Source: a virus. Taken from it: a stretch of 38,371 nucleotides of DNA. A program made the position numbers and the translations under genes. Position 1 is the stretch's first letter, and each line of letters begins with the position of its first letter. The notes beneath the pieces were generated by a model. The model was not told the DNA's origin and did not search any database. It worked only from the letters and a program-made list of their open reading frames with translations. The DNA lies in IMG/VR virus record IMGVR_UViG_3300034118_001069, positions 1 through 38,371 of that record. The stretch is one strand, 5' to 3'. Shown here one piece after another: positions 3,889-18,222 of this stretch.

Positions 3889-4114
3889 CGCCTCGACCGC
3901 GCGGCTTGCGCTTGGGGCGCTCGGCTCGGCTCAGCACGCCGAGCGCGATCGTGCGGCCGTCCGCCAGGACAATGCGGGCAACCGGCCCGCGCTCGATCGC
4001 GACGACAGCGCCTGCCTGCTGCACGCCGCCGATGGTCACGACGATCTCGTCGCCCGCCCATGCCATCCAGCGCACGGGCGGAACGCCGAGCGGGTTTCCT
4101 CGCTCACGCGCCAA
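3866..4114 (-). CDS. Small beta-rich hypothetical protein
   Basis: An 82-residue protein starting at a TTG (4114) that overlaps the end of the upstream minus-strand gene, with GGGAG a few bases before it. The middle (GDEIVVTIGGVQQAGAVVAIERG, split here only by mention, then PVARIVLADGRTIAL) alternates hydrophobic and polar residues and reads like an SH3-like small barrel. The C-terminus is basic (RAERPKRKPRGRG). It converges on and overlaps the end of the VRR-NUC gene. The protein-like pattern and the coupling to the 160-residue gene support it, but the rare start codon and small size keep confidence moderate. Function unknown. Confidence 0.55.
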   Translation of the reverse strand: MARERGNPLGVPPVRWMAWAGDEIVVTIGGVQQAGAVVAIERGPVARIVLADGRTIALGVLSRAERPKRKPRGRGVIAPPAR

Positions 4115-4738: not shown

Positions 4739-5686
4739 GTGACACGCTACGCGCGCTCACCAATCGTCGTGGTGCCCATTGGCGACCTGCACGTCGGCAG
4801 CAGCGTCGCGCTGTGCCCGGCGCACGGCGTGCAGCTCGAGGACGGCGGGCGCTACATGCCGAACGACGCGCAGCTGTGGCTGCACGCGCGTTGGCTCGAC
4901 CTGGTGGCGCGTGTGCGCGAGCTTCGGCGCCGGCGCTACCACGTCGTCGTCGTGAGCCTAGGGGAATTCGTGGACGGCCGGCATCATGAGAGCACGCAGC
5001 TGCTGTCGCAGGCCCCGGAGATCCAGGCGTCGGCGGCCATCGACGTCATGCAGCCGATGATGACGCTCGCCCATGAGTTGTACGTGCTGCGCGGCACCGA
5101 GGCTCATTCCGGAAAAGGTGCCGCAACGGACTACGCGATCGGCCGCGAGCTCGGCGCGCGCCGCGATCCGTCGACGGGCATGCACGCGTTCTATCGGTTG
5201 CTGCTGACCGTCGCAGGCGTCCATTTCGACGTCGCGCACCATGTCGGCGGAGGCGGCGACGACCCGCGCCTGTACGGCGGCGCGATCCGGCGCGAGACGG
5301 CCGCGATGCTCATGGAGCGGCCGGACACGCACGTCGTTCTGCGCGGGCACGTGCATCGCGTGGCCGACACCGGCGATGCCTACCCGACGTGCTGGGGTGC
5401 GGTTGTGCCCGCATGGCAACTCAAGACGGCGTTTACGCACCGCGTCACGCGGCGCGATGCATTCCAGGTCGGCACCTGGCTGATCGAGATTCACAGGGAG
5501 GGGACGTGGGAAAAACAAAAATTGATGTGGTCGGTCCCGGAACAGACGCGAGTCGTGTCGAGCGTTTCGATCTTGCGCGCCTCCTCGAAATCGCGCATCG
5601 ATATTCCGACGATCGTCCCGCCGCCGGAGAATTTGCCACGTCGTGGTTCGCGCACAAAAAAGGCTGGACCTACGAACGTGCGCTGA
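4739..5686 (+). CDS. Calcineurin-like metallophosphoesterase
   Basis: A 315-residue protein with the ordered metal-binding motifs of the calcineurin-like phosphoesterase fold: GDLHVG (15-20), LGEFVDG (74-80, where Glu replaces the usual Asp of GDxxD), RGTEAH (118-123, in the place of GNH[ED]), AHH (166-168) and GHVH (203-206). Two canonical residues are replaced, so metal use or activity may be altered. The enzyme domain ends near residue 255; the remaining 60 residues overlap the 5506-5769 gene in another frame and may be unstructured. The GTG start at 4739 has GGAG (4729-4732) upstream. Phage members are usually assigned to nucleic-acid repair or processing; the substrate here is unknown. 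Confidence 0.82.
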   Translation: MTRYARSPIVVVPIGDLHVGSSVALCPAHGVQLEDGGRYMPNDAQLWLHARWLDLVARVRELRRRRYHVVVVSLGEFVDGRHHESTQLLSQAPEIQASAAIDVMQPMMTLAHELYVLRGTEAHSGKGAATDYAIGRELGARRDPSTGMHAFYRLLLTVAGVHFDVAHHVGGGGDDPRLYGGAIRRETAAMLMERPDTHVVLRGHVHRVADTGDAYPTCWGAVVPAWQLKTAFTHRVTRRDAFQVGTWLIEIHREGTWEKQKLMWSVPEQTRVVSSVSILRASSKSRIDIPTIVPPPENLPRRGSRTKKAGPTNVR

Positions 5687-5769
5687 AAACGCTGCGGCTC
5701 ATGGAGGCCGACGGCCTCGTCGCAAGCCGCCCGGTCGGCAAGCGCACGGTCTGGCGGGTGCGCGAATGA
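5506..5769 (+). CDS. Small winged-helix protein upstream of the late promoter
   Basis: An 87-residue protein. Residues 20-87 look like a winged helix: LARLLEIAHRYSDD, FATSWFAHKKGWTYERALKT as the helix-turn-helix, then LRLMEADGLVASRPV and a wing GKRTVWRV. The GTG start at 5506 has a strong AGGGAGG site upstream. It overlaps the metallophosphoesterase gene by 181 bases in a different frame. It and the next small gene sit directly before the first copy of the late promoter-leader-terminator element and the lysis genes, the position held by the antiterminator Q in lambda. A role as late-gene regulator is inference from position and DNA-binding fold only. Confidence 0.7.
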   Translation: MGKTKIDVVGPGTDASRVERFDLARLLEIAHRYSDDRPAAGEFATSWFAHKKGWTYERALKTLRLMEADGLVASRPVGKRTVWRVRE

Positions 5770-5969
5770 CGCCACGCACCGAGCCGCTGCCGCTCGAGGC
5801 GCGCATCGTCGAGCTGCTGCGTGTGCAGTGGGCGCGTGCGCACGCCACGCAAGCGCTTGCCGGCGGGCAGGCCATGATCGAGGCACGCATCGTCGTGACG
5901 CCGCAGCACATCCGGGTGGAGGTGACGACGCGCGCGACACGGCAGGTCGACGTCGGCGAAGTTGGATAG
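5766..5969 (+). CDS. Small hypothetical protein
   Basis: A 67-residue protein that starts with ATG at 5766 overlapping the previous stop codon (ATGA). It has an N-terminal helix (LPLEARIVELLRVQWARAHA) and a beta-like C-terminal half (EARIVVTPQHIRVEVTT). No family recognised. Its stop codon is one base before the -10 box of the first late element, so it ends the middle operon. Like its neighbour, it is a positional candidate for controlling the late promoters. Confidence 0.65.
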   Translation: MTPRTEPLPLEARIVELLRVQWARAHATQALAGGQAMIEARIVVTPQHIRVEVTTRATRQVDVGEVG

Positions 5970-5970
5970 G

Positions 5971-6041
5971 TATAATTTCGCCCACAACCAAATACAAACC
6001 GCACTGGCGGCGCTCATCACGGGCGCCGCTTTTTTGTTTTC
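5971..6041 (+). promoter_or_regulatory. Late element, copy 1: promoter, leader and terminator
   Basis: The -10 box TATAAT (5971-5976) is followed by a leader containing CACAACCAAATAC and then a hairpin: GCGGCGCTC (6007-6015), loop ATCAC, GGGCGCCGC (6021-6029), T6GT4. The hairpin begins 30 bases after the -10 box, so a transcript from this promoter would meet a terminator after about 50 bases. The SD site TTGGAGG and the ATG of the holin gene come directly after. Copies occur at 10125-10193 and 16989-17057. Confidence 0.82.
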
Positions 6042-6054
6042 TTGGAGGTCTCAT

Positions 6055-6357
6055 ATGGACGTGTCCGCATTGCTGATCTGGCTGTCTGGCGCTGGCATCA
6101 GCGCGGTGTCTGCATTCGTTCTCGAGCGCATCGCCGGCTTCGCTACGTTGTCGCCGAACGGCAAACAGACAGTCGCTACCATCGTCGCCGTGCTCATTGC
6201 CGTCTGTGCGATGTGGGCGCACGACTGGCTCGCGGCCAACCCGTCGGCGCTGATGGCCGCTGCGCCGTATTTCCAGATTTTCGTCACGGCCGTATCAATC
6301 CTGATCCAGCAGACGGCGCACGCTGTGCAGCGCTCGGCGGGGAACAGCCATGGCTGA
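6055..6357 (+). CDS. Probable holin with three membrane segments
   Basis: A 100-residue membrane protein with three hydrophobic segments (about 4-22, 38-56 and 66-86) joined by short polar loops, and a short polar C-terminus. Size and topology fit a class I holin, which forms the membrane lesion that lets the endolysin reach the cell wall. It is the first gene after late element copy 1 and heads the lysis cassette. The ATG at 6055 follows TTGGAGG at a normal distance; in-frame codons upstream lie in the hairpin and are unlikely starts. Its end overlaps a 33-residue membrane peptide gene. No sequence family is recognised, so the call rests on topology and position. Confidence 0.75.
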   Translation: MDVSALLIWLSGAGISAVSAFVLERIAGFATLSPNGKQTVATIVAVLIAVCAMWAHDWLAANPSALMAAAPYFQIFVTAVSILIQQTAHAVQRSAGNSHG

Positions 6358-6451
6358 CGCGCTGATCGCCGTCGCCGTGTTCGTTGTCGCCGGCCTTGCG
6401 CTGGCGGCGCTGCTGTGGATCCCTGAATCGGGAGGGCCGAGCCGTGGCTGA
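6350..6451 (+). CDS. 33-residue single-span membrane peptide
   Basis: A very short gene (ATG 6350 to TGA 6449-6451) encoding one hydrophobic segment, ALIAVAVFVVAGLALAALLW (residues 4-23), followed by a short polar tail with Glu, Arg and Gly. It overlaps the holin gene at its start by 8 bases and the next gene (GTG 6444) at its end by 8 bases. This tight packing, together with membrane genes on both sides, argues that it is real. It may modulate the holin, as small holin-like or antiholin peptides do, but this is inference. Confidence 0.6.
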   Translation: MADALIAVAVFVVAGLALAALLWIPESGGPSRG

Positions 6452-6674
6452 AGCGTCCATCATCCAGCTTCTGACCGAAGGCGGCATCCCGGCGATGTTC
6501 GCGGCGCTGCTGATGTACACGCTTCACACGTCGGCGAAGCGCGAAGAGCGTCTCATGCAGCGCGAAGAAAAAGTGCTGGCGAAGCTGGACGACCTGTCGC
6601 AGACGATCATGCGGATTTCGGCTCAGCTGGATTCGCTCGTGAAAGAGATTGACCGTCTCAGAGGTGAGGACTGA
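6444..6674 (+). CDS. BhlA/UviB-like holin-like protein
   Basis: A 76-residue protein with the BhlA/UviB pattern: an N-terminal IIQLLTEGGIPAMFAALLMY membrane segment (residues 6-25), then the polar junction TSAKREERL and a charged helical coiled coil to the end (EEKVLAKLDDLSQTIMRISA and onward). These proteins act with phage holins or bacteriocin release. The GTG at 6444 has GGGAGGG upstream (6430-6436). It is the third membrane protein in a row in the lysis cassette and overlaps the endolysin start. Which of the three forms the hole cannot be told from sequence. Confidence 0.82.
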   Translation: MAEASIIQLLTEGGIPAMFAALLMYTLHTSAKREERLMQREEKVLAKLDDLSQTIMRISAQLDSLVKEIDRLRGED

Positions 6675-8305
6675 ATACGCCTTACATCAGCCAGATCGAC
6701 AACGCGCCGCGCCGCAACGACTGCGGGCCTGCGTGCGTCGTCATGATGACGGGCGTATTCCATCCCGACCGCGTTACGGCGTCGAACGTCACTGAGCTCT
6801 CGAAGCGCTTCGACTTGCCGCAGGACGGCACGACGCAGCGCGATCTGCTCATGATGGGGCAGTCCGTCGGCATCCATCTGCAGGCGACCGCGGCTGCCGA
6901 ATACCCATACATCGCGCTTGTCGATTACCGCCTGCTCCCCGTGCGCCTGCAGTCCGGCGGAGATTTCGCGCACTGGATTGTGCGTCTGTCAAGCACGAGC
7001 TACCACGATCCGCTCTGGCGCGGCAACGCCGGCGCGCACATCCAGACGACGCAGGCCGTGCTCGACCAGGCAGAAGCCGGCGCGCGGCGCTGGTCGAGCG
7101 TCGTCCCCAACCGAGTCACCCTCAAGGAGCTCCCCATGACACAGACATCCGGCAAGGCGCGCATCGCCGCATCGGCGTGGAACGTGCGCCGCGCACCCTC
7201 GACCGCATCCGCAACCGCGACCGGCTATCTGCTGCAGCCCGGGCAGGAGTTCGACGTGCTGGGCATGGTCACCGGCACAGACGGCATGCAGTGGGGCCGC
7301 ACGTCGGTCACGATCGGCGGCGTGCGCGTCGCCGACGGCTATCTGCGCGCCGACGGCTGGCGCTGGGTCAGCACGACGACGCCCGTAGTTCCACAGCCGC
7401 CGACCGCACGCCCGCCTCTGCGCCTCGGTGTGCATTTCCACGACAGCCGCGGCCACCAATACGCGCAGGGATTCCTGGCGCAGGGCGGGCAGGGCGCGAC
7501 GATCATGGAGGGCTACACGTTTTGTTCGCAACTAAAAATCGCCTACCCGCAGGCCGCGATCTTTGTGCGGCGCTGGTGGCCGGGCAATTATTTGCCACCG
7601 GTCGACCTCAACCTGCTGTGGGGCGCCGAGGACCCTAGGCTGATCTACGTGTCGCCGATCAACGAGGCGGACTGCATTGGGCAGGACATGCAGGACATCC
7701 GCCCTCGAGCCGAATACGACGCGGCAATGGCGCGCCTTGTAAAGCAGCGCACCGGCGGGCGTTTCAACGCGCTGACCGGGCGCTGGGAGGGCGGAGCAGT
7801 CTACGTCGCCAGCCCATATAGCATGGGCACGCCGGATTTCACCAGGCAGGACGTGTGCGACCAGCTGCGGCAGCACCTCGCGCCTCACTACAATTCCAAT
7901 CTGCTGGCCTACGGATATCACAGCTACAGCCCGGACCCGGCGCACATCGACAAGCCGGCCGAATGGGTGTGGTACGAGCGCCGCTGCGATTTCCTGTTCC
8001 AGAAGTGCGGCTTCAACCCGGACCCGTCTCTGGCAGGCGTGTACATGGACGAAACCGGCGTCGACACCATGGGGCGCGGCGGGTATCTTGCGTGGGGCAT
8101 GGACGGCGCTGCGGTCGCCGCCCACCTGCGCAAACTGTGCGACGCGCTGCGCAGCCCGCTCGTCGTCAACGGCAAGTCGTACCCATCTCCCTACCGTGCG
8201 GCAACGGTGTTCGCGGCCACCGACGACGTGCAGCGGTGGGGCGGATACCGCGTGCAGGGATTCCTGGGCGAGATCGCCCAGGTCGCGCAGGAGGCGCTGC
8301 GGTGA
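6671..8305 (+). CDS. Two-domain endolysin: C39-like peptidase, SH3, glycosidase
   Basis: A 544-residue lysis enzyme. Residues 1-125 are a C39/papain-like peptidase: NDCGPAC with Cys18, His101 in FAHW, and Asp113 in YHDP. Residues about 160-234 are an SH3-like wall-binding domain (WNVRRAPS, GYLRADGWRWV). Residues 248-544 look like a clan-A TIM-barrel glycoside hydrolase, with Glu332 in SPINEAD as likely acid/base and Glu461 in YMDETG as likely nucleophile. An in-frame stop at 6665-6667 leaves only CTG at 6671 as a start that keeps Cys18; the first ATG (6743) would remove it. An internal SD site and ATG at 7136 would give an SH3-glycosidase form. It cleaves peptide and sugar bonds of the host wall. 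Confidence 0.85.
   Translation: MNTPYISQIDNAPRRNDCGPACVVMMTGVFHPDRVTASNVTELSKRFDLPQDGTTQRDLLMMGQSVGIHLQATAAAEYPYIALVDYRLLPVRLQSGGDFAHWIVRLSSTSYHDPLWRGNAGAHIQTTQAVLDQAEAGARRWSSVVPNRVTLKELPMTQTSGKARIAASAWNVRRAPSTASATATGYLLQPGQEFDVLGMVTGTDGMQWGRTSVTIGGVRVADGYLRADGWRWVSTTTPVVPQPPTARPPLRLGVHFHDSRGHQYAQGFLAQGGQGATIMEGYTFCSQLKIAYPQAAIFVRRWWPGNYLPPVDLNLLWGAEDPRLIYVSPINEADCIGQDMQDIRPRAEYDAAMARLVKQRTGGRFNALTGRWEGGAVYVASPYSMGTPDFTRQDVCDQLRQHLAPHYNSNLLAYGYHSYSPDPAHIDKPAEWVWYERRCDFLFQKCGFNPDPSLAGVYMDETGVDTMGRGGYLAWGMDGAAVAAHLRKLCDALRSPLVVNGKSYPSPYRAATVFAATDDVQRWGGYRVQGFLGEIAQVAQEALR
7124..7138 (+). promoter_or_regulatory. Internal ribosome-binding site in the endolysin gene
   Basis: AAGGAG (7124-7129) lies six bases before an in-frame ATG (7136-7138, residue 156), exactly at the border between the peptidase and the SH3 domain. 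Translation here would give a separate SH3-glycosidase protein of about 389 residues. Confidence 0.6.
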
Positions 8306-8523
8306 TCTCGTTTGATGCCGTCGTCTACAAGGTGACAACGCTCGTGGACGGCGGCATTCGCGTGACGTTGGACCTGCCGGAGTACGCGCTCGAGGCGGCG
8401 ACCGCCATGATGCGCTACAAGCGCGACGAGACCGCGCTGCGCGTGGCGTGCACGGGAGGCGAAGAGAATGAAACAAAACAGAACGTACGAAAGCCTCAAA
8501 CGGAAGCAAAGGCTGCTGATTGA
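8302..8523 (+). CDS. Small hypothetical protein before the terminase
   Basis: A 73-residue protein starting at GTG 8302, which overlaps the endolysin stop codon; GGAGG lies a few bases before. The first 50 residues alternate strands and a helix (ISFDAVVYKVTTLVDGGIRV, then TLDLPEYALEAATAMMRYK). The tail is polar. The last 56 bases overlap the terminase small subunit gene in another frame. No family recognised. Its place between lysis and packaging genes gives no clear role. Confidence 0.62.
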   Translation: MISFDAVVYKVTTLVDGGIRVTLDLPEYALEAATAMMRYKRDETALRVACTGGEENETKQNVRKPQTEAKAAD

Positions 8524-8902
8524 GGCGGCGCTCGAATCTGGGCTAAAGCGCAACATCACCGCGCTGTGCGCGGAGGCAGGGGTTGGCCGCGTGTCGTTCT
8601 ATCGATGGATGAACGACGACTCGGTGTTCCGCGAAACATGGAATGGGCTGTGGCGCGATATTGCGAGCCGCCATTTCCCGACGGCCGTGGCCGCCGTCGC
8701 GGAAAAGGCGCAGCGCGGCGACGTGTCTGCCTCGCGCCTCATGGCCGAGCTACTGGGCGTGCTGAAGCAGCAGGTCGAACAGACCGGCACGCAGCGCGTC
8801 GAGATCGAGTACACCAACAACTGGCGCAACACCTATGAAGCTGAGCCTACCGCAACCGCATCCGGGGCAGATGCACGTGATGCAGCGAGCGAAGAGATTT
8901 AA
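8468..8902 (+). CDS. terS: Terminase small subunit
   Basis: A 144-residue protein with an N-terminal HTH (residues 8-50): KQRLLIEAALESGLKRNITA then LCAEAGVGRVSFYRWMNDD, the pattern of phage terminase small subunits that recognise the packaging site. A central helical part (ASRHFPTAVAAVAEKAQRG, SRLMAELLGVLKQQ) fits the oligomerisation domain. The C-terminal tail is polar. The ATG at 8468 has GGAGGCGAAGAG upstream, and the gene overlaps terL by 68 bases. It would form a ring on phage DNA and hand it to the large subunit. Identification rests on HTH type, size and position directly before terL. Confidence 0.85.
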   Translation: MKQNRTYESLKRKQRLLIEAALESGLKRNITALCAEAGVGRVSFYRWMNDDSVFRETWNGLWRDIASRHFPTAVAAVAEKAQRGDVSASRLMAELLGVLKQQVEQTGTQRVEIEYTNNWRNTYEAEPTATASGADARDAASEEI

Positions 8903-10076
8903 CTGGCTCAGTGCCGGTCGCCGCTGGCGCAAAACGACGATGGTCATGGCGATCGCCGTCGAACACGCCGTGCAGGGCGCACAGATCATGTGGTGCGCGC
9001 CAACGTATGAGCAGGCGCGCGTGGCGATGGAAGAAACGGCCTACGCCGCGCGTGACATTGCCGTGTTCAACGAATCGCGCATGACGGCTGCATTCCCGTC
9101 AGGCGGACGCATCGCGTACCGATCGCTGCAGAAGCCCGACAACGTGCGCAGCTTTACCGCGCACGGCATCGTCATCGACGAGGTCGCCGACGTACCCGAG
9201 GAGGCTTGGACAGCCGTGCTGCGTCCGACGCTCATCAGCACACGCGGTTGGATGTGGGGCATCGGCACGCCGAAGGGCAGAAACTGGTTCTACGCGCAGT
9301 GGCATCGCGCAGCAGAGCGCGGCGATGCGGCTGCGTTTCGCGCGCCCACCCTCGGCGCCGAGGTTGTCGGCGGCCGACTGGTGCGCAAGCCGCATCCGCT
9401 GGAGAACCCGACTGTGGACTGGGACGAGATCGAGCAGCTGCACCGCACGATGCCGGAATATGTGTTCCGCCAGGAAATCCTCGCCGAGTTTGTCGAAGTC
9501 GGCGGCGGCGTGTTCCGCGGTGTACGCGACGCCGTGCGCCCTGCAGCCATACGCAGCTATACCCACACGCACGTCGCCGGCCTCGACTGGGCCCTCAACT
9601 TCGACTACACGGTGCTCACGATCATCGACGCCACGACCGGCGCGGTCGTGCACGTCGATCGTTTCAACGGGGCAGAGTACGCCATGCAGCGCGCGCGCAT
9701 CGCTGCTGCGTGCCAGCGCTTCCGCGTGGACGTGCTTCTGGCCGAGGCCAACGCGATGGGAAAACCGAACAACGACATGCTGCGCGACGAAGGGGTCCCC
9801 GTGCGCGACTTCACGACCACGTCCTCGACGAAAAGCGAGATCATCCGCCGTCTCGCTGCTGCGTTCGAGCAGCGGCGGCTGACGCTGCCGCCTGACGACG
9901 TGATGATCGCCGAGCTCGAGGCGTACGAGGCAAAGCGCCTCGAGTCCGGGGCGATCCGCTACAGCGCCCCCGACGGCATGCACGACGACACCGTGATGTC
10001 CCTGGCGCTCGCCTGGTACGCCGCGGACACGACGACGGCGGCTGTGGCGCCGATGATCGCGCGGTCGCCCTTCTAG
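8835..10076 (+). CDS. terL: Terminase large subunit
   Basis: A 413-residue packaging motor. The ATPase domain has the Walker A AGRRWRKTT (27-35), Walker B IVIDE (112-116) and coupling motif GTPKGRN (144-150). The RNase H-like nuclease domain begins near residue 247 with Asp251 in GLDWALNFD, continues with Glu304 in LLAEANA, and ends with HDD (383-385) before a hydrophobic helix. These carboxylates bind the catalytic metal ions that cut concatemeric DNA. The length is typical of short siphovirus TerL proteins. The start at ATG 8835 overlaps terS; ATG 8871 is possible but would shorten the N-terminus. It ends the first late operon. Confidence 0.96.
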   Translation: MKLSLPQPHPGQMHVMQRAKRFNWLSAGRRWRKTTMVMAIAVEHAVQGAQIMWCAPTYEQARVAMEETAYAARDIAVFNESRMTAAFPSGGRIAYRSLQKPDNVRSFTAHGIVIDEVADVPEEAWTAVLRPTLISTRGWMWGIGTPKGRNWFYAQWHRAAERGDAAAFRAPTLGAEVVGGRLVRKPHPLENPTVDWDEIEQLHRTMPEYVFRQEILAEFVEVGGGVFRGVRDAVRPAAIRSYTHTHVAGLDWALNFDYTVLTIIDATTGAVVHVDRFNGAEYAMQRARIAAACQRFRVDVLLAEANAMGKPNNDMLRDEGVPVRDFTTTSSTKSEIIRRLAAAFEQRRLTLPPDDVMIAELEAYEAKRLESGAIRYSAPDGMHDDTVMSLALAWYAADTTTAAVAPMIARSPF

Positions 10077-10078
10077 CT

Positions 10079-10121
10079 GCTATGCACGCGCCTATACGCG
10101 CGCCATACACGCGTGCATAGC
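10079..10121. promoter_or_regulatory. 12-base inverted repeat upstream of late element copy 2
   Basis: GCTATGCACGCG (10079-10090) and CGCGTGCATAGC (10110-10121) are perfect inverted copies 19 bases apart. Between them lie related motifs (CTATACGCGCG, CATACACGCG). It starts two bases after the terL stop and ends three bases before the -10 box TACAAT, so it covers the -35 region. There is no T-run, so an operator is likelier than a terminator. Confidence 0.6.
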
Positions 10122-10124
10122 TGT

Positions 10125-10193
10125 TACAATCCCAGCACAACCAAATACCAACCGCACTGGCGGCGCTCACACCGAGTGCCGCTTTTTTGTTTT
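10125..10193 (+). promoter_or_regulatory. Late element, copy 2: promoter, leader and terminator
   Basis: A -10 box TACAAT (10125-10130) with an upstream TG at 10122-10123 (extended -10) is followed by CCCAGCACAACCAAATACC, then the hairpin GCGGCGCTC (10160-10168), loop ACACC, GAGTGCCGC (10174-10182), T6GT4. The 3' arm differs from the other copies at two places, yet all nine pairs remain (one G-U). It stands before the head genes. The ATG at 10200 follows without an SD site. Confidence 0.82.
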
Positions 10194-10199
10194 CCCACA

Positions 10200-12479
10200 A
10201 TGACCACGAGCAACACCCCCAAACCCCGCAAGGTGCGCATCCGCGAATCGGTCTCGGCCGTCGTCGGCGAGATCGGCGAATCGCAGGGCGGCGCTCGCGG
10301 CCGCACCATCACGATCCGCGAGGCGATCACGGCCGGAGCGGTCAACCGCAACGGACGCCGCTACACCGAGGCTGCCATTCGCGCGGCCGTCGATGAGCTG
10401 CGACCGCTGCTTGCGGAGAGCAACGGACAGGGGAGGATCGCCATTCTGCGCACGCGGGACGGCGACCCTCTTGTCGGCGAAGCGGATCACCCATCGGACA
10501 AGGCGCAGGCGCCGCAGCTCCTCGAAACCATCGTCGCATGGACCGACGCGTCCTACGACGACGTGACTCGCGCGGTATCCCTGACGGGCACCATCGCGGA
10601 CACGCAGCGAGGGCGGGACATCCTGGCACTGGCCGAAATCGGCGTGTTTCCCGGCGGCAGCCTGCGCGGGCACGGCATGTCGCAGGTCGTCGACATCGGC
10701 GAAAGCCAGATCGAGGAAGTCACGGAGCTGCACATCACGGGGTATGACCTCGTGCTGACGCCGTCGTTTGTCAACACCTCGGTCATCGAATCGGTGCAGC
10801 CCCCTGCGCCGCAACCAGACACCCACACGGAGGACATCGTGAACCACGAACTTATGCGCAAGGCGCTCGGCCTTGCCGAGTCTGCCACCGAGGCAGACAT
10901 CATCGCCGCAGCGCAGCGCGCCGGCGACGCCGCCAAACAGCTCGAGGAGAGCCGCAAGCAGGACTCACTCACGCGCGCGATCGACGAGGCCTGCAAGGGC
11001 CTGCCGTACGACGTCGCGCTCAACGCGCAGTTCCGCGAGGAGCTGACCGAGGACGTCGCCGACGCCTCGGCCGTCGCCAGCCGCGCCGCCAGGCTGCGCA
11101 AGCGCTTCGACCAGGTCGCAGCCGCCGGCGCGCTCAAGGCGCAGGGCTACACCGGCCCGCTCGCCAGCGTGCAGGTCGCGCCCGTGTTCGAGCGCGAGAC
11201 GGGCCAGCCGTCCTACGCCCAGCCGGCTCACGAATTCGCCGAAGCCGTCGCCGCTCGCCGCGGCGTGACGCTGTTCGAATCCTCGAAGCCGCGCACGGCC
11301 AACGAGCGGCTCGCCGCCAGCGTGCTCAAGCGCTACGACGAGATGTACGGCGCGCAGCTGCAGCGCGAGGCCCAGCTGTTCGCGGAAGCGCACACGGCCA
11401 CCGACCTGACGCTGCCGTACACGGTGTCGCGCGCGATCAACGCCGCGGTGTTTCCGTCGCTTGTCGCGACCGGCATCTTCGACGCCGCGCTGATGCAGAA
11501 CTCGCCCGAGTACCTCTACTACGAGTCGTACGCCGAAGAGACAGGTCTCACGGCTACGGTGACCGACGAGGTGGTCGCAGCGCCGGCAACGCTCGGGAAC
11601 ACGAGCGCGCTTGCCGCGCAGCGCGTGACGCCCGGCACGGTCGTCGTGACCAACAGCGCCGCGAGCACGACCTACACCGAGGGCACTGACTACACCGTCG
11701 ATTACGCCAACGGCCTGGTGTTCTTCCCGGCCACGGGCGGTGCGATCACCGCGGCGCAGTCGCTGAAAATCGACTACCAGTACAAGGCGGTCCGCAAGGG
11801 CGAGAACGCCGCGATCGAGCGCGCCAAGAACACGCTGTCGCGCATCGCGATTGAAGCAAAGGCCGACCGGCTTGCCGTCGAGATCACGAATGAGTCGATT
11901 GTGTTCGGCCGCTCGCAGCTCGGCTACGACGTGGCGGCCCGGGCCGTCGCGAACATGACGAACGAAATCAACCGGATCATCGATCAGGGTCTGATTCGTC
12001 TCGCCATTCAGGCCGTCAAGTCGATCGCTTCCAACAGCGGCGGCACGTGGACCGTCGGCGGCACGCCAGACTACAGCGTCGGCGTAGCCACGATCGGCAA
12101 GGCCAAGGTCAAGGTGCTCAACCGCAACTACCAGCCGACGTTCGCGCTGATGTCCGCGACCAACTCCGACCTGATCGCAAACTGGACGGGTTTCTCGGCG
12201 TCGGGCCTGCGCCCGGACGGCGCGCTCAACCCAACCGGCTTCGTGGGCCGCGTCAAGGGCCTCGATGTGTTCGAATCCACGCAGATGACGGACACCGACA
12301 TCATCGTCGGCAACCGCGAGCTGGTGATGTTCCGCATCTTCCAGCCGTTGCTCGTCAAGGGCCCGTTCCCGTCTTACGATTCGAACAAGCTCAAAGCCAA
12401 CGATCAGTGGTACATCGAGGGCTTCAACGCCTCCGCTGCACCCGTGCCGCAGAAGGGCGCGTTCATGATCGTGGCCTAG
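10200..12479 (+). CDS. Prohead protease - scaffold - major capsid fusion
   Basis: A 759-residue fusion. Residues 20-205 are a T4-gp21/U9-like prohead protease: LVGEADHPSDK with the catalytic His, GVFPGGSLRGHGMS with the catalytic Ser, and ITGYDLVLTPSFVN as the closing strand. Residues about 214-330 are charged helices like a scaffold or delta domain. The rest is an HK97-fold major capsid protein (AINAAVFPSLVATGIFDAAL, ending FNASAAPVPQKGAFMIV). A beta-rich insertion near residues 470-530 (VTPGTVVVTNSAA, GTDYTVDYANGLVFFP) looks like a surface domain. A strong internal site (GGAGG, GTG 10839) could give a 546-residue scaffold-capsid protein without protease. The start at 10200 directly follows late element copy 2 and has no SD site. 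Confidence 0.88.
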   Translation: MTTSNTPKPRKVRIRESVSAVVGEIGESQGGARGRTITIREAITAGAVNRNGRRYTEAAIRAAVDELRPLLAESNGQGRIAILRTRDGDPLVGEADHPSDKAQAPQLLETIVAWTDASYDDVTRAVSLTGTIADTQRGRDILALAEIGVFPGGSLRGHGMSQVVDIGESQIEEVTELHITGYDLVLTPSFVNTSVIESVQPPAPQPDTHTEDIVNHELMRKALGLAESATEADIIAAAQRAGDAAKQLEESRKQDSLTRAIDEACKGLPYDVALNAQFREELTEDVADASAVASRAARLRKRFDQVAAAGALKAQGYTGPLASVQVAPVFERETGQPSYAQPAHEFAEAVAARRGVTLFESSKPRTANERLAASVLKRYDEMYGAQLQREAQLFAEAHTATDLTLPYTVSRAINAAVFPSLVATGIFDAALMQNSPEYLYYESYAEETGLTATVTDEVVAAPATLGNTSALAAQRVTPGTVVVTNSAASTTYTEGTDYTVDYANGLVFFPATGGAITAAQSLKIDYQYKAVRKGENAAIERAKNTLSRIAIEAKADRLAVEITNESIVFGRSQLGYDVAARAVANMTNEINRIIDQGLIRLAIQAVKSIASNSGGTWTVGGTPDYSVGVATIGKAKVKVLNRNYQPTFALMSATNSDLIANWTGFSASGLRPDGALNPTGFVGRVKGLDVFESTQMTDTDIIVGNRELVMFRIFQPLLVKGPFPSYDSNKLKANDQWYIEGFNASAAPVPQKGAFMIVA
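10829..10841 (+). promoter_or_regulatory. Internal ribosome-binding site between protease and scaffold
   Basis: GGAGG (10829-10833) lies five bases before an in-frame GTG (10839-10841, residue 214), at the border of the protease and the helical scaffold region. Translation from here would make capsid protein without protease, as lambda Nu3 is made from within gene C. Confidence 0.62.
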
Positions 12480-12492
12480 GCTGCGCACTAGC

Positions 12493-12520
12493 GGGCGCGT
12501 GCGGGAGACCGTGCGCGCCC
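12493..12520 (+). other. GC-rich hairpin with a GAGA tetraloop after the capsid gene
   Basis: Bases 12493-12504 pair over 12 positions with 12509-12520 (two adjacent G-U pairs) and close a GNRA-type loop, GAGA. No T-run follows, so it is not a standard terminator. It lies 13 bases after the capsid stop and seven bases before the next ATG, which has no SD site. It may stabilise the capsid message or limit translation of the next gene. Confidence 0.6.
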
Positions 12521-12527
12521 TGTGTCT

Positions 12528-12800
12528 ATGAAACGATTTGTCAAAATCACCGCCGTCGCCGATCGCGTGCTTGTGGCCGAGTGCTGGCTCTACGCTGGCG
12601 AGTCGCGCGTGGTGCACCGGCGCTACGCCGACCGCGTGCTGTCTGCCCAGCCCGGCGCGCTGACCGTAACCGAGATCGACGACGGCGCCATGACGGAGCC
12701 GCAGCCGGTCGTCCTCGAGGAGGCGCACGATGCCCATCACCCGCCAGTCGCTGATCGACAGCCTGACCGCGGCCCTGCCCGCAAGGGCCGGCGCGCCTAG
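12528..12800 (+). CDS. Small hypothetical head-region protein
   Basis: A 90-residue protein. The first 55 residues look structured and beta-rich (MKRFVKITAVADRVLVAECW, LSAQPGALTVTEID); the last 30 are polar, His/Asp/Arg-rich, and overlap the next gene in another frame. No SD site precedes the ATG, and a stable hairpin ends seven bases upstream, so expression may be low or coupled. It resembles the small proteins often found after capsid genes, but I recognise no family. Confidence 0.55.
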   Translation: MKRFVKITAVADRVLVAECWLYAGESRVVHRRYADRVLSAQPGALTVTEIDDGAMTEPQPVVLEEAHDAHHPPVADRQPDRGPARKGRRA

Positions 12801-13398
12801 CAGCACGCAGTACGCCGACGCCATCGACGCCGCTGTGCTTGCGTATTCGCAGCGCGTGCCGCTCGTGCGCACTACGACGCTCGCCGTAACGGCGGGCGTT
12901 TCGTCGTATTCGCTGCCAGCTGATTTCCTTGCGCTGGTCAGCCTGGAGTCGGCCGAAGTGCTCGGCCTGCACGTCGCGATCACGAGCGCCGGCATTGTCC
13001 CGCTCGGTGACGCCGAGGACGAGGTCTACGAGATCCTCGGCAATACGCTCGTGTTCGACGACGCGCCGACCTACTCGAGTGAGCGCACGCTGAAATACAA
13101 CGCGGCGCACGTGGCGACCAGCGGCACGTACGCCGACATGCAGACGCGCGACCGCGAGCCGGTGCTGCTGCGCGCGCAGGCCGACCTGCTGCGCATGCTC
13201 GCGATGCGCGAAGCCGGCAACGCGTGGTCGTACAAGATCGGTGACGAAAGCGTCGACAAGAAGGGCCTTGGACAGGCGCTGTTCATGGCGGCAGACGTGA
13301 TCGACCGGCAGTACGAGCGCATCGTGGACACGCTCGGCGGCGGCGCTGGTAGCGGCGGCACGGTGAGCGTGCGGTCGGACTACACGGCGTGGAAATAA
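12730..13398 (+). CDS. Head-tail adaptor (connector) protein
   Basis: A 222-residue protein. The N-terminal helical part (ITRQSLIDSLTAAL, YADAIDAAVLAYSQRVPLVR) followed by VTAGVSSYSLPADFLALVSL is characteristic of phage head-tail connector proteins that bind under the portal. The C-terminal helices (LLRAQADLLRMLAMREAG) and a Gly/Ser-rich tail complete it. The ATG at 12730 has GAGGAGGCGC upstream. It is followed immediately by stopper- and tail-completion-like genes, which supports a role in sealing the filled head. Exact family is not certain. Confidence 0.72.
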   Translation: MPITRQSLIDSLTAALPARAGAPSSTQYADAIDAAVLAYSQRVPLVRTTTLAVTAGVSSYSLPADFLALVSLESAEVLGLHVAITSAGIVPLGDAEDEVYEILGNTLVFDDAPTYSSERTLKYNAAHVATSGTYADMQTRDREPVLLRAQADLLRMLAMREAGNAWSYKIGDESVDKKGLGQALFMAADVIDRQYERIVDTLGGGAGSGGTVSVRSDYTAWK

Positions 13399-13399
13399 T

Positions 13400-13735
13400 A
13401 TGCTGACGCCCGGCGACATGGAGAGCATCCGCGCAACGTTCGACGAGATGCGCGCCGACAACGCGGCGAGCATCGCGCTGCGTCGCGGCACATCAACGCT
13501 CTCCGCGCAGTCGTTCCGCTTTGGGCTGAAGGGCGCCGGATCGCGCAACACGGGAGCCGCGCCTACGCCGGCCGGGCTGGCGCAGACAACGGCGCAGGGC
13601 ACGCTCGTCGGAGCGACGACCGCCGACGTCCAGATCGGCGACCGCTTCACGAGCGGCGGCGTCGTGTGGCAGGTGGTCTACGTGCGGCCGGACCGGCGCG
13701 CGGCGACGCTGTGCGACGTGGAGGCCACGCAGTGA
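13400..13735 (+). CDS. Head closure (stopper)-like protein
   Basis: A 111-residue protein with an N-terminal helix (PGDMESIRATFDEMRADNAA) and a small beta barrel ending in GDRFTSGGVVWQVVYVRPD and RAATLCDVEA, the pattern of SPP1 gp16-like stopper proteins. The ATG at 13400 lies one base after the previous stop. Such proteins close the connector after packaging and bind the tail. The next gene starts at a GTG that overlaps its stop codon. Confidence is moderate because the family is short and variable. Confidence 0.7.
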   Translation: MLTPGDMESIRATFDEMRADNAASIALRRGTSTLSAQSFRFGLKGAGSRNTGAAPTPAGLAQTTAQGTLVGATTADVQIGDRFTSGGVVWQVVYVRPDRRAATLCDVEATQ

Positions 13736-14082
13736 GCGGCATTGCGTTTACCGTCGCCTTCGAAGACATGGCCAAGCAGATCGACGCGATCAAGCTGCAC
13801 GCGGCCGTGCACAAGATCATCAGCATCTGGGCGCAGCAGGTCGAGAACGACATGCGGAAAAACGCAACGTGGACTGACCGCAGCGGCGCGGCGCGCAACG
13901 GCTTGTTCCGCGCGGTCGACAACGCGCCGGCGTCCATCACCGCACGCTTCGGCCACACGATGGAATACGGGCGATACCTGGAGCTGAGCAACGCCGGCAA
14001 ATACGCAATCATCATGCCGAGCATTCAGGCGCGGCTGCCCGAGCTTGAGCAGAGCTTGTCGCGCATTATGGAGGAGGCCTAA
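13732..14082 (+). CDS. HK97 gp10-like tail completion protein
   Basis: A 116-residue protein like the HK97-gp10 group: an N-terminal strand and helices (FEDMAKQIDAIKLHAAVHKI), the RKNATWTDRSGAARNGL segment, HTMEYGRYLELSNAGKYAII, and a final helix. Proteins of this group sit at the head-tail junction and help tail attachment. Start is GTG 13732 overlapping the previous stop (GTGA). It precedes the portal gene, an unusual order because gp10-like genes normally follow portal, protease and capsid as a block. Confidence 0.82.
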   Translation: MSGIAFTVAFEDMAKQIDAIKLHAAVHKIISIWAQQVENDMRKNATWTDRSGAARNGLFRAVDNAPASITARFGHTMEYGRYLELSNAGKYAIIMPSIQARLPELEQSLSRIMEEA

Positions 14083-14084
14083 CC

Positions 14085-15374
14085 GTGGCACTGACTGACA
14101 CCATCGCCCGCCTGCTGGGGCGCACCAGCGCCACGACACGCGCGCGCACGACGCTCGACGATACGCCGCAGCCGGCGTCGATGCCGTCGCTGTCGAGTGA
14201 TCGCTTCTCGATCTCGCGCGCGCGTGCGTCCGTGATCCGCGAGTGCCGCGATCTGTATCGCACCGACGCGCGCATTCGTCGCATCCTCAAGAGCGTAAGC
14301 GCCGACGTCGTCAAGGGTGGCTATACAGTGACCGTGCGCGGGGACCAGCGAGCGGCCGACATCGCCGCGGCGCAGGAGCAGCGCCTCAAATTGACCTCGC
14401 GCCTCGACGACTGGACGCGGCTCTGTTTTGTGGACGGCGACCTGTTCCTTGAGCTCGGCGTGGACGCGCAGGGGCAGATCGCTGCCGTGACCCGCAAGCC
14501 GACGCTCGAGATCATCCGAAGCTCAAACAACCTCGACCAGTTCGACGACCCGAGCCGCGCGTTCTACTGGATCGGCGACACGCCCATGATGGCCGGCGAC
14601 GCGCTGCCGAAAGACGCCGTGCCGCTCGCGCAGTGGCAGATCATCCACGCGCGCTGGGACCACGACGACGGCGAGCGCTACGGCAACCCGATGTTCGGCT
14701 CGGCGGTGCAGACGGCCAAATACGTGCACGACGGCGAGCGCAACATGGCCGTGCGCCGTCTGTCTCGCAGCGGCCTGCGCTACTCTCACCGCGTCGAGGG
14801 ATCACAGCAGGAGGTCGAGCGCTACCGCAGGGCCAACCAGGACGCCCTGAACGACCCGTATGCCGCCGTCACAGACTTTTTCGGGAACTCCGTGATTACG
14901 CGCCTCGACGGCGACTCGAACCTCGCACAGTACGACGACGTGATGCATCACGTGCGCACGCTCGGCATGGCGTCGCCGATCGCGCTCGGCCTGCTCGGCT
15001 ACGGGCAGGACTTGAACCGCGACGTGCTCGACGAGCAACAGCAGCAGTACGAGCGCACGCTCGAAAGCATGACCGAATGGCTGCAGGCGCAGATCGTCGA
15101 GCCGATGCTGCGCCTCGAGTGGCTCCTCGCCGGCATCCTGCCTGAGTCGCTCGACTACGAGATCGTGTGGAAAGCCAAGCAGCCGTTCACGGCAGGAAAT
15201 CTCAAAGCCGCGGCCGAGGCCGGCCTTGCGCTGCAGGCGCTGGGGTACGATCCGATCGCCGTGCACGCGATGCTCACGCGCTTCATGCCTGGTCTCGACG
15301 CCATTGTCCCGGAGCCGCCGACGCCGCCCGAGACCACGCCGAGCGCCATCGCCGCGGCCATGGGAGGGCGGTAA
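14085..15374 (+). CDS. Portal protein
   Basis: A 429-residue portal protein, the dodecameric ring at one capsid vertex through which DNA passes. Recognisable pieces: the N-terminal helix ARASVIRECRDLYRTDARIR, VSADVVKGGYTV, the wing strands WTRLCFVDGDLFLELGVD, the HARWDHDDGERYGNPMFGSA clip region, and the long C-terminal helices (DVLDEQQQQYERTLESMTEW, QIVEPMLRLEWLL). It starts at GTG 14085 behind GGAGGAGG. It lies downstream of the capsid and three head-completion genes rather than next to terL. The stop overlaps the start of the MuF-like gene (TAATG). Confidence 0.93.
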   Translation: MALTDTIARLLGRTSATTRARTTLDDTPQPASMPSLSSDRFSISRARASVIRECRDLYRTDARIRRILKSVSADVVKGGYTVTVRGDQRAADIAAAQEQRLKLTSRLDDWTRLCFVDGDLFLELGVDAQGQIAAVTRKPTLEIIRSSNNLDQFDDPSRAFYWIGDTPMMAGDALPKDAVPLAQWQIIHARWDHDDGERYGNPMFGSAVQTAKYVHDGERNMAVRRLSRSGLRYSHRVEGSQQEVERYRRANQDALNDPYAAVTDFFGNSVITRLDGDSNLAQYDDVMHHVRTLGMASPIALGLLGYGQDLNRDVLDEQQQQYERTLESMTEWLQAQIVEPMLRLEWLLAGILPESLDYEIVWKAKQPFTAGNLKAAAEAGLALQALGYDPIAVHAMLTRFMPGLDAIVPEPPTPPETTPSAIAAAMGGR

Positions 15375-16567
15375 TGACCGGGGTTGAATACCCACAACAA
15401 AACATCGCGCTGCTGCGTCTGCAGCTCTACACGATCGGCGCAGTGACCGAGGCGTTCGGCGATGCCGCGCGCAAGGCTTCGGCGCTTATCGTGCAGCGCG
15501 CCGACAAGAGCGGCATGGTGAGCGACCTCGAGCTCGGCATCATCCGCCCGCGCATCAACCGGCTGATCGACGATGCGCTCGGGCGCTGGGTCTCAATCAC
15601 GCGCGCAGCGAGGCGCGAGGCGGCGTCGCTGCCGTTCGGGACCATGCGCCGCATGCACGCCCGCATGATGCGCGGGGTCCCGATCACCGAAGCGCGGGCG
15701 CGCATCACGCAGGAAGACGAAGAGGTCGACTACGTGTTCCAGCCGCAGATCGCGTCGGTGATGCAGGCGGCGTCGCGCGGCTTCGGCCGCAACTGGTCGG
15801 ACACGATCTGGCGCACATCGCAGCAGGCGCGAGGCGGGGCGGGCAACGTGCTGTATCAGGGCATCAGCCAGGGCAAGAGCGCGTGGGACATCGCCAAGTC
15901 GCTGGAATCTTTTCTTGGCGCCGGCGCCGACTGCCCGCGCTGGACGCGCACGCGCTTGTTCGGGCTGACAAAGGGCGACATCGCGGACGGGAACATGGCC
16001 GGCCTGCTCAGCAGCTCGCCCGTATCGCAGGCGATGGGTGCGTCGCCGTGCCAGCCAAAGGGCGTCAGCTACAACGCACTGCGCACGGCGCGCACCGAGA
16101 TCAGCCGCGTGCACCACGAGGCTTCGCAGGCGACCTACCGCGACCAGCCGTGGGTGCAGGAGGAGCAAATCAATCTCAACCCGCAGCACCCGGTCGAAGA
16201 CATCTGCGACGAGGTGATCCGCGACGGCCGGGACGGGAAGGGCATCTACCCGATTGGCGAGGTGTCGCTGCCGATCCATCCCAACTGCCTGTGCTTTTCG
16301 ACAGCCGTAATCATGCAAGACGATGATTTCGATTCGCGCATGCGCGGCTGGCTGCGCGGCGAGTCGTGGCCGGACATGGACGCGTACAGCGCCAAATACG
16401 GGCGCGGCATGGAGCCTGCGCTCACGTCGTCGAGCGCGTCGCCGCCGGCCGGCAACGTGCTGGCCATGCCAAGCGGCACGCGCGCCATCGACGCGCTCGA
16501 CGCCTGGCTGACCGGCGACCAACGCACGATTGACAAGCGCATGGACGTAGACGAGGAGGGTGCATGA
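15374..16567 (+). CDS. MuF-like minor head protein
   Basis: A 397-residue protein of the phage Mu gpF / SPP1 gp7 group, directly after the portal as usual. The C-terminal part has the diagnostic sequence: NALRTARTEISRVHHEASQA, then IHPNCLCFSTAV near residue 302, where His and two Cys may bind a metal. The N-terminal half is helical (VTEAFGDAARKASALIVQRA, ITRAARREAASLPFGTMRRM). The last 60 residues are Ser/Ala/Pro-rich. These proteins join the prohead through the portal and may be ejected with DNA. Start ATG 15374 overlaps the portal stop; the frame is open further upstream but shadows the portal gene. Confidence 0.88.
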   Translation: MTGVEYPQQNIALLRLQLYTIGAVTEAFGDAARKASALIVQRADKSGMVSDLELGIIRPRINRLIDDALGRWVSITRAARREAASLPFGTMRRMHARMMRGVPITEARARITQEDEEVDYVFQPQIASVMQAASRGFGRNWSDTIWRTSQQARGGAGNVLYQGISQGKSAWDIAKSLESFLGAGADCPRWTRTRLFGLTKGDIADGNMAGLLSSSPVSQAMGASPCQPKGVSYNALRTARTEISRVHHEASQATYRDQPWVQEEQINLNPQHPVEDICDEVIRDGRDGKGIYPIGEVSLPIHPNCLCFSTAVIMQDDDFDSRMRGWLRGESWPDMDAYSAKYGRGMEPALTSSSASPPAGNVLAMPSGTRAIDALDAWLTGDQRTIDKRMDVDEEGA

Positions 16568-16977
16568 CCATCCGGGACGACATCGCCGCGGCGTTGACCG
16601 CCAACGCAGGCATCGTGGCTGTGCTCACGGGCGGCGTCCACAAGGACATCGTCAGCCGCCAGACGACGCCGAGCGCGTTCGACGCGACGACGCTTGAGCT
16701 CAAGCCGTGCGCCGTCGTACGCATGGAGACCGAGGTGCCGGACGGCCCGTTCGTGCACAGCGTGCGCACGCCGGTGGTGATCTACTTTTACCAGCGCACA
16801 GGCTACGACCAGGTCGAATCCGCCATGCAGCTCGTCTACGTGCTGCTGCAGCGCAGCAAGGTCGGCGCGTCCACGTTCGAGGTGCGGCTTGCCGACCAGG
16901 TCAACGATCAGTGGGACGACGTGCTCAACGCGTCGATGGCCATGCAGCGCTACAACGTGACGCGCATGCGAGCGTAG
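16564..16977 (+). CDS. Tail terminator-like protein
   Basis: A 137-residue protein starting at ATG 16564 overlapping the MuF stop (ATGA). It has an N-terminal helix (TIRDDIAAALTANAGIVAVL), strands around LKPCAVVRMETEVPDG, the segment RTPVVIYFYQRTGYDQVESA, and a final helix and strand. This is the pattern and position (just before the major tail protein) of tail terminators that cap the tail tube and set the head joint. It is the last gene of the head module; late element copy 3 begins 11 bases after its stop codon. Confidence 0.72.
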   Translation: MTIRDDIAAALTANAGIVAVLTGGVHKDIVSRQTTPSAFDATTLELKPCAVVRMETEVPDGPFVHSVRTPVVIYFYQRTGYDQVESAMQLVYVLLQRSKVGASTFEVRLADQVNDQWDDVLNASMAMQRYNVTRMRA

Positions 16978-16988
16978 GGGACGCGTGC

Positions 16989-17057
16989 GATAATCCCAGC
17001 ACAACCAAATACCAACCGCACTGGCGGCGCTCATCACGGGCGCCGCTTTTTTGTTTT
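16989..17057 (+). promoter_or_regulatory. Late element, copy 3: promoter, leader and terminator
   Basis: A -10 box GATAAT (16989-16994) with upstream TG (extended -10), the leader CCCAGCACAACCAAATACC, and the hairpin GCGGCGCTC (17024-17032), loop ATCAC, GGGCGCCGC (17038-17046), T6GT4. From CCCAGC through the hairpin to T6GT4, copies 2 and 3 differ only in the loop and 3' arm. GGAGG (17059-17063) and the major tail gene follow. Confidence 0.82.
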
Positions 17058-17071
17058 CGGAGGACACACAC

Positions 17072-17593
17072 ATGCCGACGTTTTCCAACTACCCCTACGG
17101 GTGCCGCGAAGTGCGCGTAAAGAACGGCGCTGCCGCAAGCATCGCCAACCGCGCCGCGCAGACGCTCAAATTCAAAGAATCGATCACGAGCGCCAATCTC
17201 ATGGGCAACGACCGCGTGGTCGCGACCAAGACGTACATGACGCACATGGAGCTGGAATTCGAGGCCGGCGGCATGGATTTGGATTTCTACGCCGCGCTGA
17301 CCGGCCGCACAATCACGACGAGCGGCACGGGAGCAGCTGAGGTTGGCACGATGCCGCTGACCGGCGGCGATTCGTTCCCGTATCTGGCGGTCTACGGCAA
17401 AATCCTGGGCGAGGGGGCGGACGATTTGCATGTGAAGTTTTTCAAGTGCAAGGTCACCGAGATCGACGGCGAGTTCAAGGAAGGCGCGTTCGCTGTCACC
17501 AAGTGCAAGCTGGTCGCAATCCCGGACGCGGCGGCTTCTGACAAGGTGGCCGAGATTGTCGCGAACGAAACCGCAGCGGCGCTGCCGGCGTAG
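17072..17593 (+). CDS. Major tail tube protein
   Basis: A 173-residue, beta-rich protein and the first gene of the tail module, directly before the frameshifted chaperone genes and the tape measure. Features that fit a siphovirus tail tube protein are the N-terminal GCREVRVKNGAAASIANRAA, the strand pair YMTHMELEFEAGGMDLDFYA, and the C-terminal LHVKFFKCKVTEIDGEFKEG and VTKCKLVAIPD strands. ATG 17072 has the SD site GGAGG at 17059-17063. Its own copy of the late element would let it be made at high level. The identification rests on fold pattern and strict gene order. Confidence 0.85.
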   Translation: MPTFSNYPYGCREVRVKNGAAASIANRAAQTLKFKESITSANLMGNDRVVATKTYMTHMELEFEAGGMDLDFYAALTGRTITTSGTGAAEVGTMPLTGGDSFPYLAVYGKILGEGADDLHVKFFKCKVTEIDGEFKEGAFAVTKCKLVAIPDAAASDKVAEIVANETAAALPA

Positions 17594-17596
17594 CCT

Positions 17597-18010
17597 ATGG
17601 AAGAAAAAGAGCTGAGCGCGCAAGCGGCCGACAAGCGGCGCACGTGGCGCAGGGAGCGCCGGGCCGGCAAGCTGCTCACCACAGCGACCGGCCTGGTGCT
17701 GCGCGTCCGGCGCGCGACGCTGATCGACCTCGTGCGCGCCGGGCACATCCCGCAGCCGCTGCTGCCGACGGTCGAGGAGATTTTCAGCGCGGGAACGATG
17801 ACGATCACCGACGCCGTGCGCTACATGGACGCGGTCGAGGCGATCTGCCGCGTGGTCATCACCGAGCCGCGCGTCGTCGACGGCATCTCTGACTCCGACG
17901 ACGAGATCGGTCTCGGCGAAATGACGGCCGACGAAAAGTTGAGCGTGGTGAACTACGTGAACTCGACGCCGGTCGGTCTCTACAATTTTTTAGGAAACGC
18001 GACCACGTGA
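17597..18010 (+). CDS. Tail assembly chaperone, upstream part (G-like)
   Basis: A 137-residue basic-to-acidic protein (N-terminal KRRTWRRERRAGKLL, acidic SDSDDEIGLGEMTADEK near residues 99-115) in the position of lambda gpG between major tail protein and tape measure. It would bind the tape measure during tail assembly. Near its end the codons AAT TTT TTA carry the slippery heptamer T TTT TTA (17986-17992) in the correct phase, and a stem-loop starts six bases later. A share of ribosomes should shift back one base and continue into the 18007-18222 frame, making a fusion of about 208 residues, as for G and GT. Confidence 0.85.
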   Translation: MEEKELSAQAADKRRTWRRERRAGKLLTTATGLVLRVRRATLIDLVRAGHIPQPLLPTVEEIFSAGTMTITDAVRYMDAVEAICRVVITEPRVVDGISDSDDEIGLGEMTADEKLSVVNYVNSTPVGLYNFLGNATT

Positions 18011-18029
18011 CGACGCTGCACATGGTCGC
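17986..18029 (+). promoter_or_regulatory. Programmed -1 frameshift signal
   Basis: Slippery heptamer T TTT TTA (17986-17992) in zero-frame phase; a 6-base spacer; then a stem-loop: GCGACCA (17999-18005) pairs with TGGTCGC (18023-18029), extended inside by GTG/CAC after one mismatch. The zero-frame stop codon (18008-18010) lies in the stem-loop. Confidence 0.88.
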
Positions 18030-18222
18030 GCAAACGTACGGGCAGCGGCCGTCGCAGATCGTCGGCATCCGCTCGTCGAGACTGGCGTATCAGTTCGACG
18101 TCGCCGTGCTCGCGTCGGTCAGCGTACAGCCGAGCGGGGCCGCGCAGCCGCAGCAGCGCTACAGCGTGCCCAGTAGTCTCCCGGTACGGCGCATGGCCAT
18201 ACCGGAATCGGGAGTGTGGTAG
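17992..18222 (+). CDS. Tail assembly chaperone, frameshifted part (T-like)
   Basis: This is the -1 frame read after the shift, about 76 residues beginning RKRDHVTTLHMVAQ and ending with PESGVW. It forms the C-terminal part of the G-GT-like fusion that bridges tape measure and tail tube protein. A GTG at 18007 has no good SD site, so independent translation is unlikely. The segment TYGQRPSQIVGIRSSRLAYQ fits the typical T domain of siphoviruses. The stop codon directly abuts the ATG of the tape measure gene at 18223. Confidence 0.82.
   Translation, partial: RKRDHVTTLHMVAQTYGQRPSQIVGIRSSRLAYQFDVAVLASVSVQPSGAAQPQQRYSVPSSLPVRRMAIPESGVW

Follow-up and report, generated by a model that had tools for sequence, protein, structure and literature searches.

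The locus analysed here raises the question of how the late genes of a phage are switched on when a strong intrinsic terminator stands directly before each late module. To our knowledge, late-gene switching has been worked out for few phages. The window, by which we mean the whole stretch of DNA analysed, is the viral record IMGVR_UViG_3300034118_001069 at its full length of 38,371 bp. Profile searches identified plus-strand genes for TerS, TerL, a head protease/capsid fusion, portal, major tail protein and tape measure, and a BhlA-type holin was also identified by search (plus strand, 6444-6674). On the minus strand, profile-type searches found a large serine integrase together with a staphylococcal-nuclease-like protein, and the phage is thus probably temperate. 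Since the bacterial assemblies carrying TerL relatives are mainly those of Chloroflexota, the host is probably a member of this group. At the ends of two adjacent minus-strand reading frames there is a direct repeat of 54 nt (37238-37291 and 37528-37581), with 89% identity between its copies.

Leader-terminator cassettes at the starts of the late modules

Three cassettes, at 5971-6041, 10125-10194 and 16989-17058, lie immediately 5' of the lysis/terminase, head (protease-capsid) and major tail protein genes, respectively, and each is composed of a -10 box, an unstructured leader of about 24 nt and a strong intrinsic terminator. The initial annotation had placed three promoter-leader-terminator copies here, which was borne out by a repeat family of three copies, 84-100% identical over 67 nt, by a fuzzy leader search (20 nt, at most three mismatches) giving three matches only and none in 100 shuffles, and by the hairpin calls. 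No further copy was found in the 38,371-bp record. The three -10 boxes, the 9-bp hairpin with its T6GT4 tail and the start of the hairpin 29-30 nt past each -10 box were likewise all found as annotated. In copy 1, the box TATAAT (5971-5976) is located at the stop codon of a gene for a 67-aa protein, with a weak -35 sequence, TCGACG, 18 nt upstream; the RNA is predicted from the -10 spacing to start at about 5983-5984, the leader CACAACCAAATACAAACCGCACT, found by both the repeat and the leader searches, occupies 5983-6005, and the terminator (6006-6041) consists of a hairpin at 6006-6030 followed by T6GT4C. Copy 2 has the box TACAAT, extended by TGT (10125-10130), the leader CACAACCAAATACCAACCGCACT (10136-10158) and a terminator at 10159-10194, while copy 3, which is nearly identical to copy 1, has the box GATAAT, extended by TGC (16989-16994), the leader CACAACCAAATACCAACCGCACT (17000-17022) and a terminator at 17023-17058; both leaders were delimited by the repeat family and alignment, and all these features are on the plus strand. 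The hairpin contains 9 strong pairs, or 10 with a closing G-T, reaches about -20 kcal/mol before its U6GU4 tail, and is stronger than dinucleotide shuffles in RNA folding energy (z -2.5 to -3.7). Directly upstream of the copy 2 -10 box there is a 12-bp inverted repeat, GCTATGCACGCG ... CGCGTGCATAGC (10079-10122, plus strand), a possible operator; related sequence is present in the relatives L005 and G001 and absent in G002.

That a copy stands at the start of each module, as had also been claimed, was confirmed by the flanking genes identified with profiles. Behind copy 1 lies the lysis/terminase module (6055-10076, plus strand), with the holin, TerS (8468-8902) and TerL (8835-10076); behind copy 2 the head module (10200-16977, plus strand), with the protease/capsid fusion (10200-12479) and portal (14085-15374); and behind copy 3 the tail module (17072-28345, plus strand), with the major tail protein (17072-17593) and the tape measure (18223-20394). 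The head protease and capsid are apparently fused into one 759-aa protein with an Ig-like stretch in its middle (phrog_207 and phrog_807). At 10184-10200 the capsid-fusion gene has no evident ribosome-binding site behind the U-rich terminator tail, as is the case in L010, L035 and L046, and the U-rich tract might aid its translation.

The first gene of each module starts only 16-24 nt past the hairpin, at 6055, 10200 and 17072, which leaves no space for a promoter, so that these genes can be transcribed only by polymerase passing the terminator, in agreement with the earlier claim that termination has to be overcome. Read-through is required whether polymerase began at the local -10 box or farther upstream, and independently of -10 activity. 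Besides these three, the 22-kb late region (5971-28345) contains no strong forward terminator, and the generic layout of an attenuator, a putative promoter, a short leader, an intrinsic terminator and a gene directly downstream, was found in all three copies. Translational coupling or a leader peptide was considered and rejected; a reading frame through the element is not common to the copies.

None of the three copies has a -35 box that matches at more than 3-4 of 6 positions, which is near the background level and not convincing, whereas four other promoter-like sites in the window have near-consensus -35 boxes. The late promoters are predicted from the -10 boxes only, extended by TGn in copies 2 and 3. 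The conserved block begins 6-7 nt past the -10 box, approximately at the expected transcription start, and extends through the terminator to T6GT4C, whereas the 30 nt upstream of the -10 box show 17-40% identity between copies. Judged from this, the repeated unit is not the promoter itself but the predicted transcribed leader plus the terminator, joined to three different promoters.

Conservation in close and distant relatives

A TerL search yielded 80 loci. The same cassette at the same junctions was present in L005, L006/G001, L007, L008 and L009/G002, of which L005 and L007 are fragments with two copies, and the terminases of relatives with the cassette at the same junctions are 85-99% identical. 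In L025/G010, where TerL is 47% identical, a close copy precedes the lysis genes (76.8 bits) and a weak one the head protease gene; homologues of the window head genes were not detected in this phage. Looking for covariance in related phages, as initially suggested, recovered the leader-hairpin: in an alignment of 12 copies, ATA and CAACCGC hardly vary, CAACCGC is followed by ACTG in the window and mostly by TTGT in the others, and the stem covaries at one pair (AU in 7, GC in 3, GU in 2) with no broken pair. The original claim that RNA structure is selected had drawn on the altered 3' arm of copy 2, in which every pair is retained (G-C to G-U and U-G to U-A); two changes in the window say little by themselves, and the compensated stems of the relatives are better evidence. 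The layout and the leader motif are found again in relatives, whose hairpins are compensated, which indicates that leader and hairpin alike are maintained.

The -10 boxes are conserved site by site in relatives, and in L005, G001, G002 and G010 copy 1 retains its box, TATA(A/C)T, close to where the 67-aa gene ends. The distance from this box to the leader varies from about 7 nt in the window to well over 80 nt in G001 and G010, with the box of L006/G001 far upstream and, in the relatives, extra, partly structured sequence between box and leader, whereas the spacing from leader to terminator is constant. The fixed spacing on one side and the variable distance on the other would place the recognised part next to the terminator rather than the promoter. 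In L006, L009, L005 and L025 the long copy 1 leader has an additional hairpin just before the conserved leader, which the window copy does not have. Copies within a phage differ on average by 0.16 versus 0.22 for same-site copies between phages, a slight trend only towards concerted evolution.

Among the distant loci, terminators directly before genes are often preceded by a -10 box (19 of 39 strong ones on the plus strand and 1 of 9 on the minus strand). A motif matrix trained on the close family only was tested out-of-sample on 34 non-redundant distant terminators before genes: 14 had a -10 box (mean of 4.8 and maximum of 10 in 300 shuffles) and 10 had the close-family leader motif (mean 2.7 and maximum 8 in shuffles; 3.4% of random 80-mers), statistics that are modest and depend on filters of our own choosing. 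In the pair L069/L372 and the trio L010/L035/L046 the leader is kept and the upper stem is rewritten with compensation, and more distant relatives have weaker analogues upstream of holin, scaffold, protease/capsid and portal genes. In one of the distant loci, L046 (G013), the TerL (located at 4128) has an intein-like insertion, starting CFVAGTMILT... Two short pattern scans of IMG/VR returned mostly chance matches and known relatives, and the cassette had no relative in known phage genomes or in 301 Chloroflexota genomes.

A 4-bp CCGC-4nt-GCGG hairpin overlapping the 5' arm of the terminator can be drawn in 12 of 12 close copies, but it is invariant and so gives no covariation signal, and a competing CCGC/GCGG antiterminator hairpin is put forward here as an idea. 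Pairing of the leader with the terminator arm outside the close family is weakly above chance (P about 0.02-0.04); leader-to-arm complementarity as a general antiterminator was set aside, its signal being weak beyond the family. There is a hint of a mini-hairpin near the motif, in 9 of 11 regions against 3.0 expected from single-base shuffles, where the regions were picked by hand and the dinucleotide-shuffle background is higher.

Passage of the terminators and candidate factors

We lean, with some reserve, towards the view that the cassettes are conditional terminators, each of which gates one late module until leader-directed antitermination opens it in the late phase. Polymerase would start at a -10-only promoter and transcribe the common leader (about 23 nt, CACAACCAAATACCAACCGC...); its default would be to stop at the hairpin and U-tract, some 50 nt into the transcript. 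In late infection, recognition of the transcribed leader, as RNA or as template, would let polymerase pass by antitermination, and all three sites would be opened because the same leader-terminator unit is present at each. What the sequence shows is the unit, where it lies, its conservation with leader and terminator at a fixed spacing, and the closeness of the genes to the terminators. From this we infer active -10 boxes, efficient termination in the absence of a factor, and the existence of such a factor acting via the leader.

The main rival, to which we assign a minor though appreciable chance, is that the cassettes are leaky attenuators without a regulator, where a fixed fraction of polymerase passes and sets the dose of each module, aided by the local weak promoter. 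No unknown factor would be required, read-through is obligatory anyway with genes 16-24 nt further on, and among the proteins scanned no known antiterminator family was found; it does not explain, however, the conservation of an unstructured leader, always at the same spacing from the terminator, in different copies and phages, or the retention of such strong hairpins ahead of a capsid gene. A classical processive antitermination of the Q/AlpA type, in which a protein loads on promoter DNA during a sigma-dependent pause and then ignores all terminators, shares the order of promoter, terminator and late gene, would suit the small DNA-binding gene directly upstream of copy 1, and has a precedent in AlpA, with two target operons and a terminator just before the first gene in each (PMC7969949). 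We nevertheless consider it unlikely: nothing is shared upstream of the -10 boxes, the first 35 nt of the transcripts contain no -10-like hexamer with A2 and T6, the promoter-to-terminator distance is strongly variable in relatives, and once a processive factor had loaded at copy 1, copies 2 and 3 would no longer be needed.

The cassettes lie exactly at module borders, copies 1 and 3 are nearly identical and copies within a phage are somewhat more alike, as would be expected with exchange, all of which would suit terminators that simply close each module, or recombination sequences of module boundaries that were copied to several places in the genome, the -10 boxes being there by chance. This is improbable given that each site keeps its -10 box in relatives, that such boxes are enriched among distant analogues, that the next gene directly downstream still depends on read-through, and that distant phages have different hairpins yet a similar leader motif. 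Nearly identical predicted RNAs from three sites, with a conserved single-stranded CA-rich 5' part, could also mean that the cassettes are genes for regulatory RNAs of about 50 nt and read-through is incidental; but their target is not known, their position is always directly before late module starts and not elsewhere, and an RNA acting in trans would need no several copies exactly there, so that we give this very little credence. Local, leader-directed antitermination at each module start is, in our assessment, the most likely reading.

The best candidates for the factor, on synteny only, are an 87-aa winged-helix protein (5506-5769, plus strand) and/or its possible partner, the 67-aa protein (5766-5969, plus strand), predicted to have a helix plus two strands. 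Both genes are conserved and syntenic (identities for the 87-aa and 67-aa proteins of 62/53% in G001, 92/68% in G002 and 44/41% in G010), and in IMG/VR relatives of either occur only in phages with the close-family cassette, a co-occurrence confounded by common descent of the entire early-lysis region. The structure model of the winged-helix protein is partly confident, with low confidence at the N-terminus; it looks like DNA-binding winged helices in general and has no clear relative; the 67-aa protein had no match in a PDB fold search, and no relative of the winged-helix protein was found in known phage genomes or in the 400 Chloroflexota genomes searched for its family. The two genes do hold the position of Q, as initially proposed, and they co-occur with the cassette, but neither the winged-helix model nor the Q-family profiles revealed a clear likeness to Q. 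Since distant phages with analogous cassettes have no recognisable relatives of the two genes, another factor may be at work, possibly one supplied by the host as a protein.

About 180 bp of the winged-helix gene (5506-5686) are shared, in a different reading frame, with the 3' end of a metallophosphatase-like gene (4739-5686), and similarity to both genes spans the overlap in G001, G002 and, over a shorter length, G010. In G001 (L282, about 3845-4180) a plus-strand relative (68% identity) of the window's minus-strand gene 32363-32737 sits between the winged-helix and 67-aa genes, so that this gene has moved.

Significance and comparison with known systems

Control of late genes by promoter, leader and terminator is known; its multi-site, leader-linked form is on the unusual side. 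We found no paper on late-gene switching in Chloroflexota phages, and no described equivalent, in a library of partial coverage. It is possible, and we advance it tentatively, that these phages have a previously undescribed late-gene control system, in which each late module is preceded by a different promoter and, behind it, by a common leader motif (approximately AAYYNAATA, then a small C/G hairpin) joined to an intrinsic terminator; a single factor acting in trans would read the leader as it is transcribed and open all the copies locally and simultaneously. If true, a compact conditional terminator repeated at several module starts would be a solution unlike that of lambda, with its single Q site, and would provide a genetic switch that is portable and open to direct testing. 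The cassette also offers a sequence mark by which the starts of late modules can be recognised in uncultivated phages.

In lambda, a constitutive-looking promoter and an intrinsic terminator (PR'-tR') precede the late genes, and Q acts through qut at this one site. The window is similar in that a promoter and then an intrinsic terminator stand before late genes, with a candidate regulator gene just upstream; it differs from lambda in having three sites and a very short leader, in lacking an element shared upstream of the -10 boxes and a sigma-pause hexamer in the early transcript, and in that no Q-family protein was found. P2 and Mu have several co-regulated promoters, one per late operon, at which an activator switches initiation with no terminator in the leader; the several sites, one before each late operon, are alike, and the leader terminator is the difference. 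For RNA antiterminators of the LicT/BglG type, the recognition site lies beside and overlaps the 5' arm of the terminator, as CCGC-4nt-GCGG does in the window family, but the overlapping hairpin here has 4 bp and never varies, and no such regulator domain was present among the proteins scanned.

In HK022, antitermination is specified by a transcribed sequence, the put RNA. Tn916 canT is a cis-acting antitermination element, most likely RNA (PMC11658703). A signal in the transcribed sequence is what we propose here too; put and canT, however, act in cis and processively on later terminators, whereas the cassettes have a short single-stranded leader touching the terminator, and no curated RNA family (Rfam) matched the window or four relatives. 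The initial comparison of antitermination at three sites with lambda Q/qut and HK022 put is consequently upheld in layout and not in its specific analogies. AlpA of Pseudomonas aeruginosa is a small DNA-binding regulator of more than one operon (alpBCDE and PA0807-PA0829), in each of which the first gene directly follows a terminator; its binding site lies between -35 and -10, and a sigma-dependent pause is required for its action (PMC7969949; PMC9371919). The several target sites, each with a terminator right before the first gene, resemble the cassettes, in all three of which an intrinsic terminator lies between the promoter and the first late gene. A shared spacer element between -35 and -10 and the early pause hexamer are absent from all three copies, and for this reason a Q/AlpA mechanism seems less likely than leader-directed antitermination; unlike in AlpA, recognition, if it exists, would have to reside in the transcribed leader.
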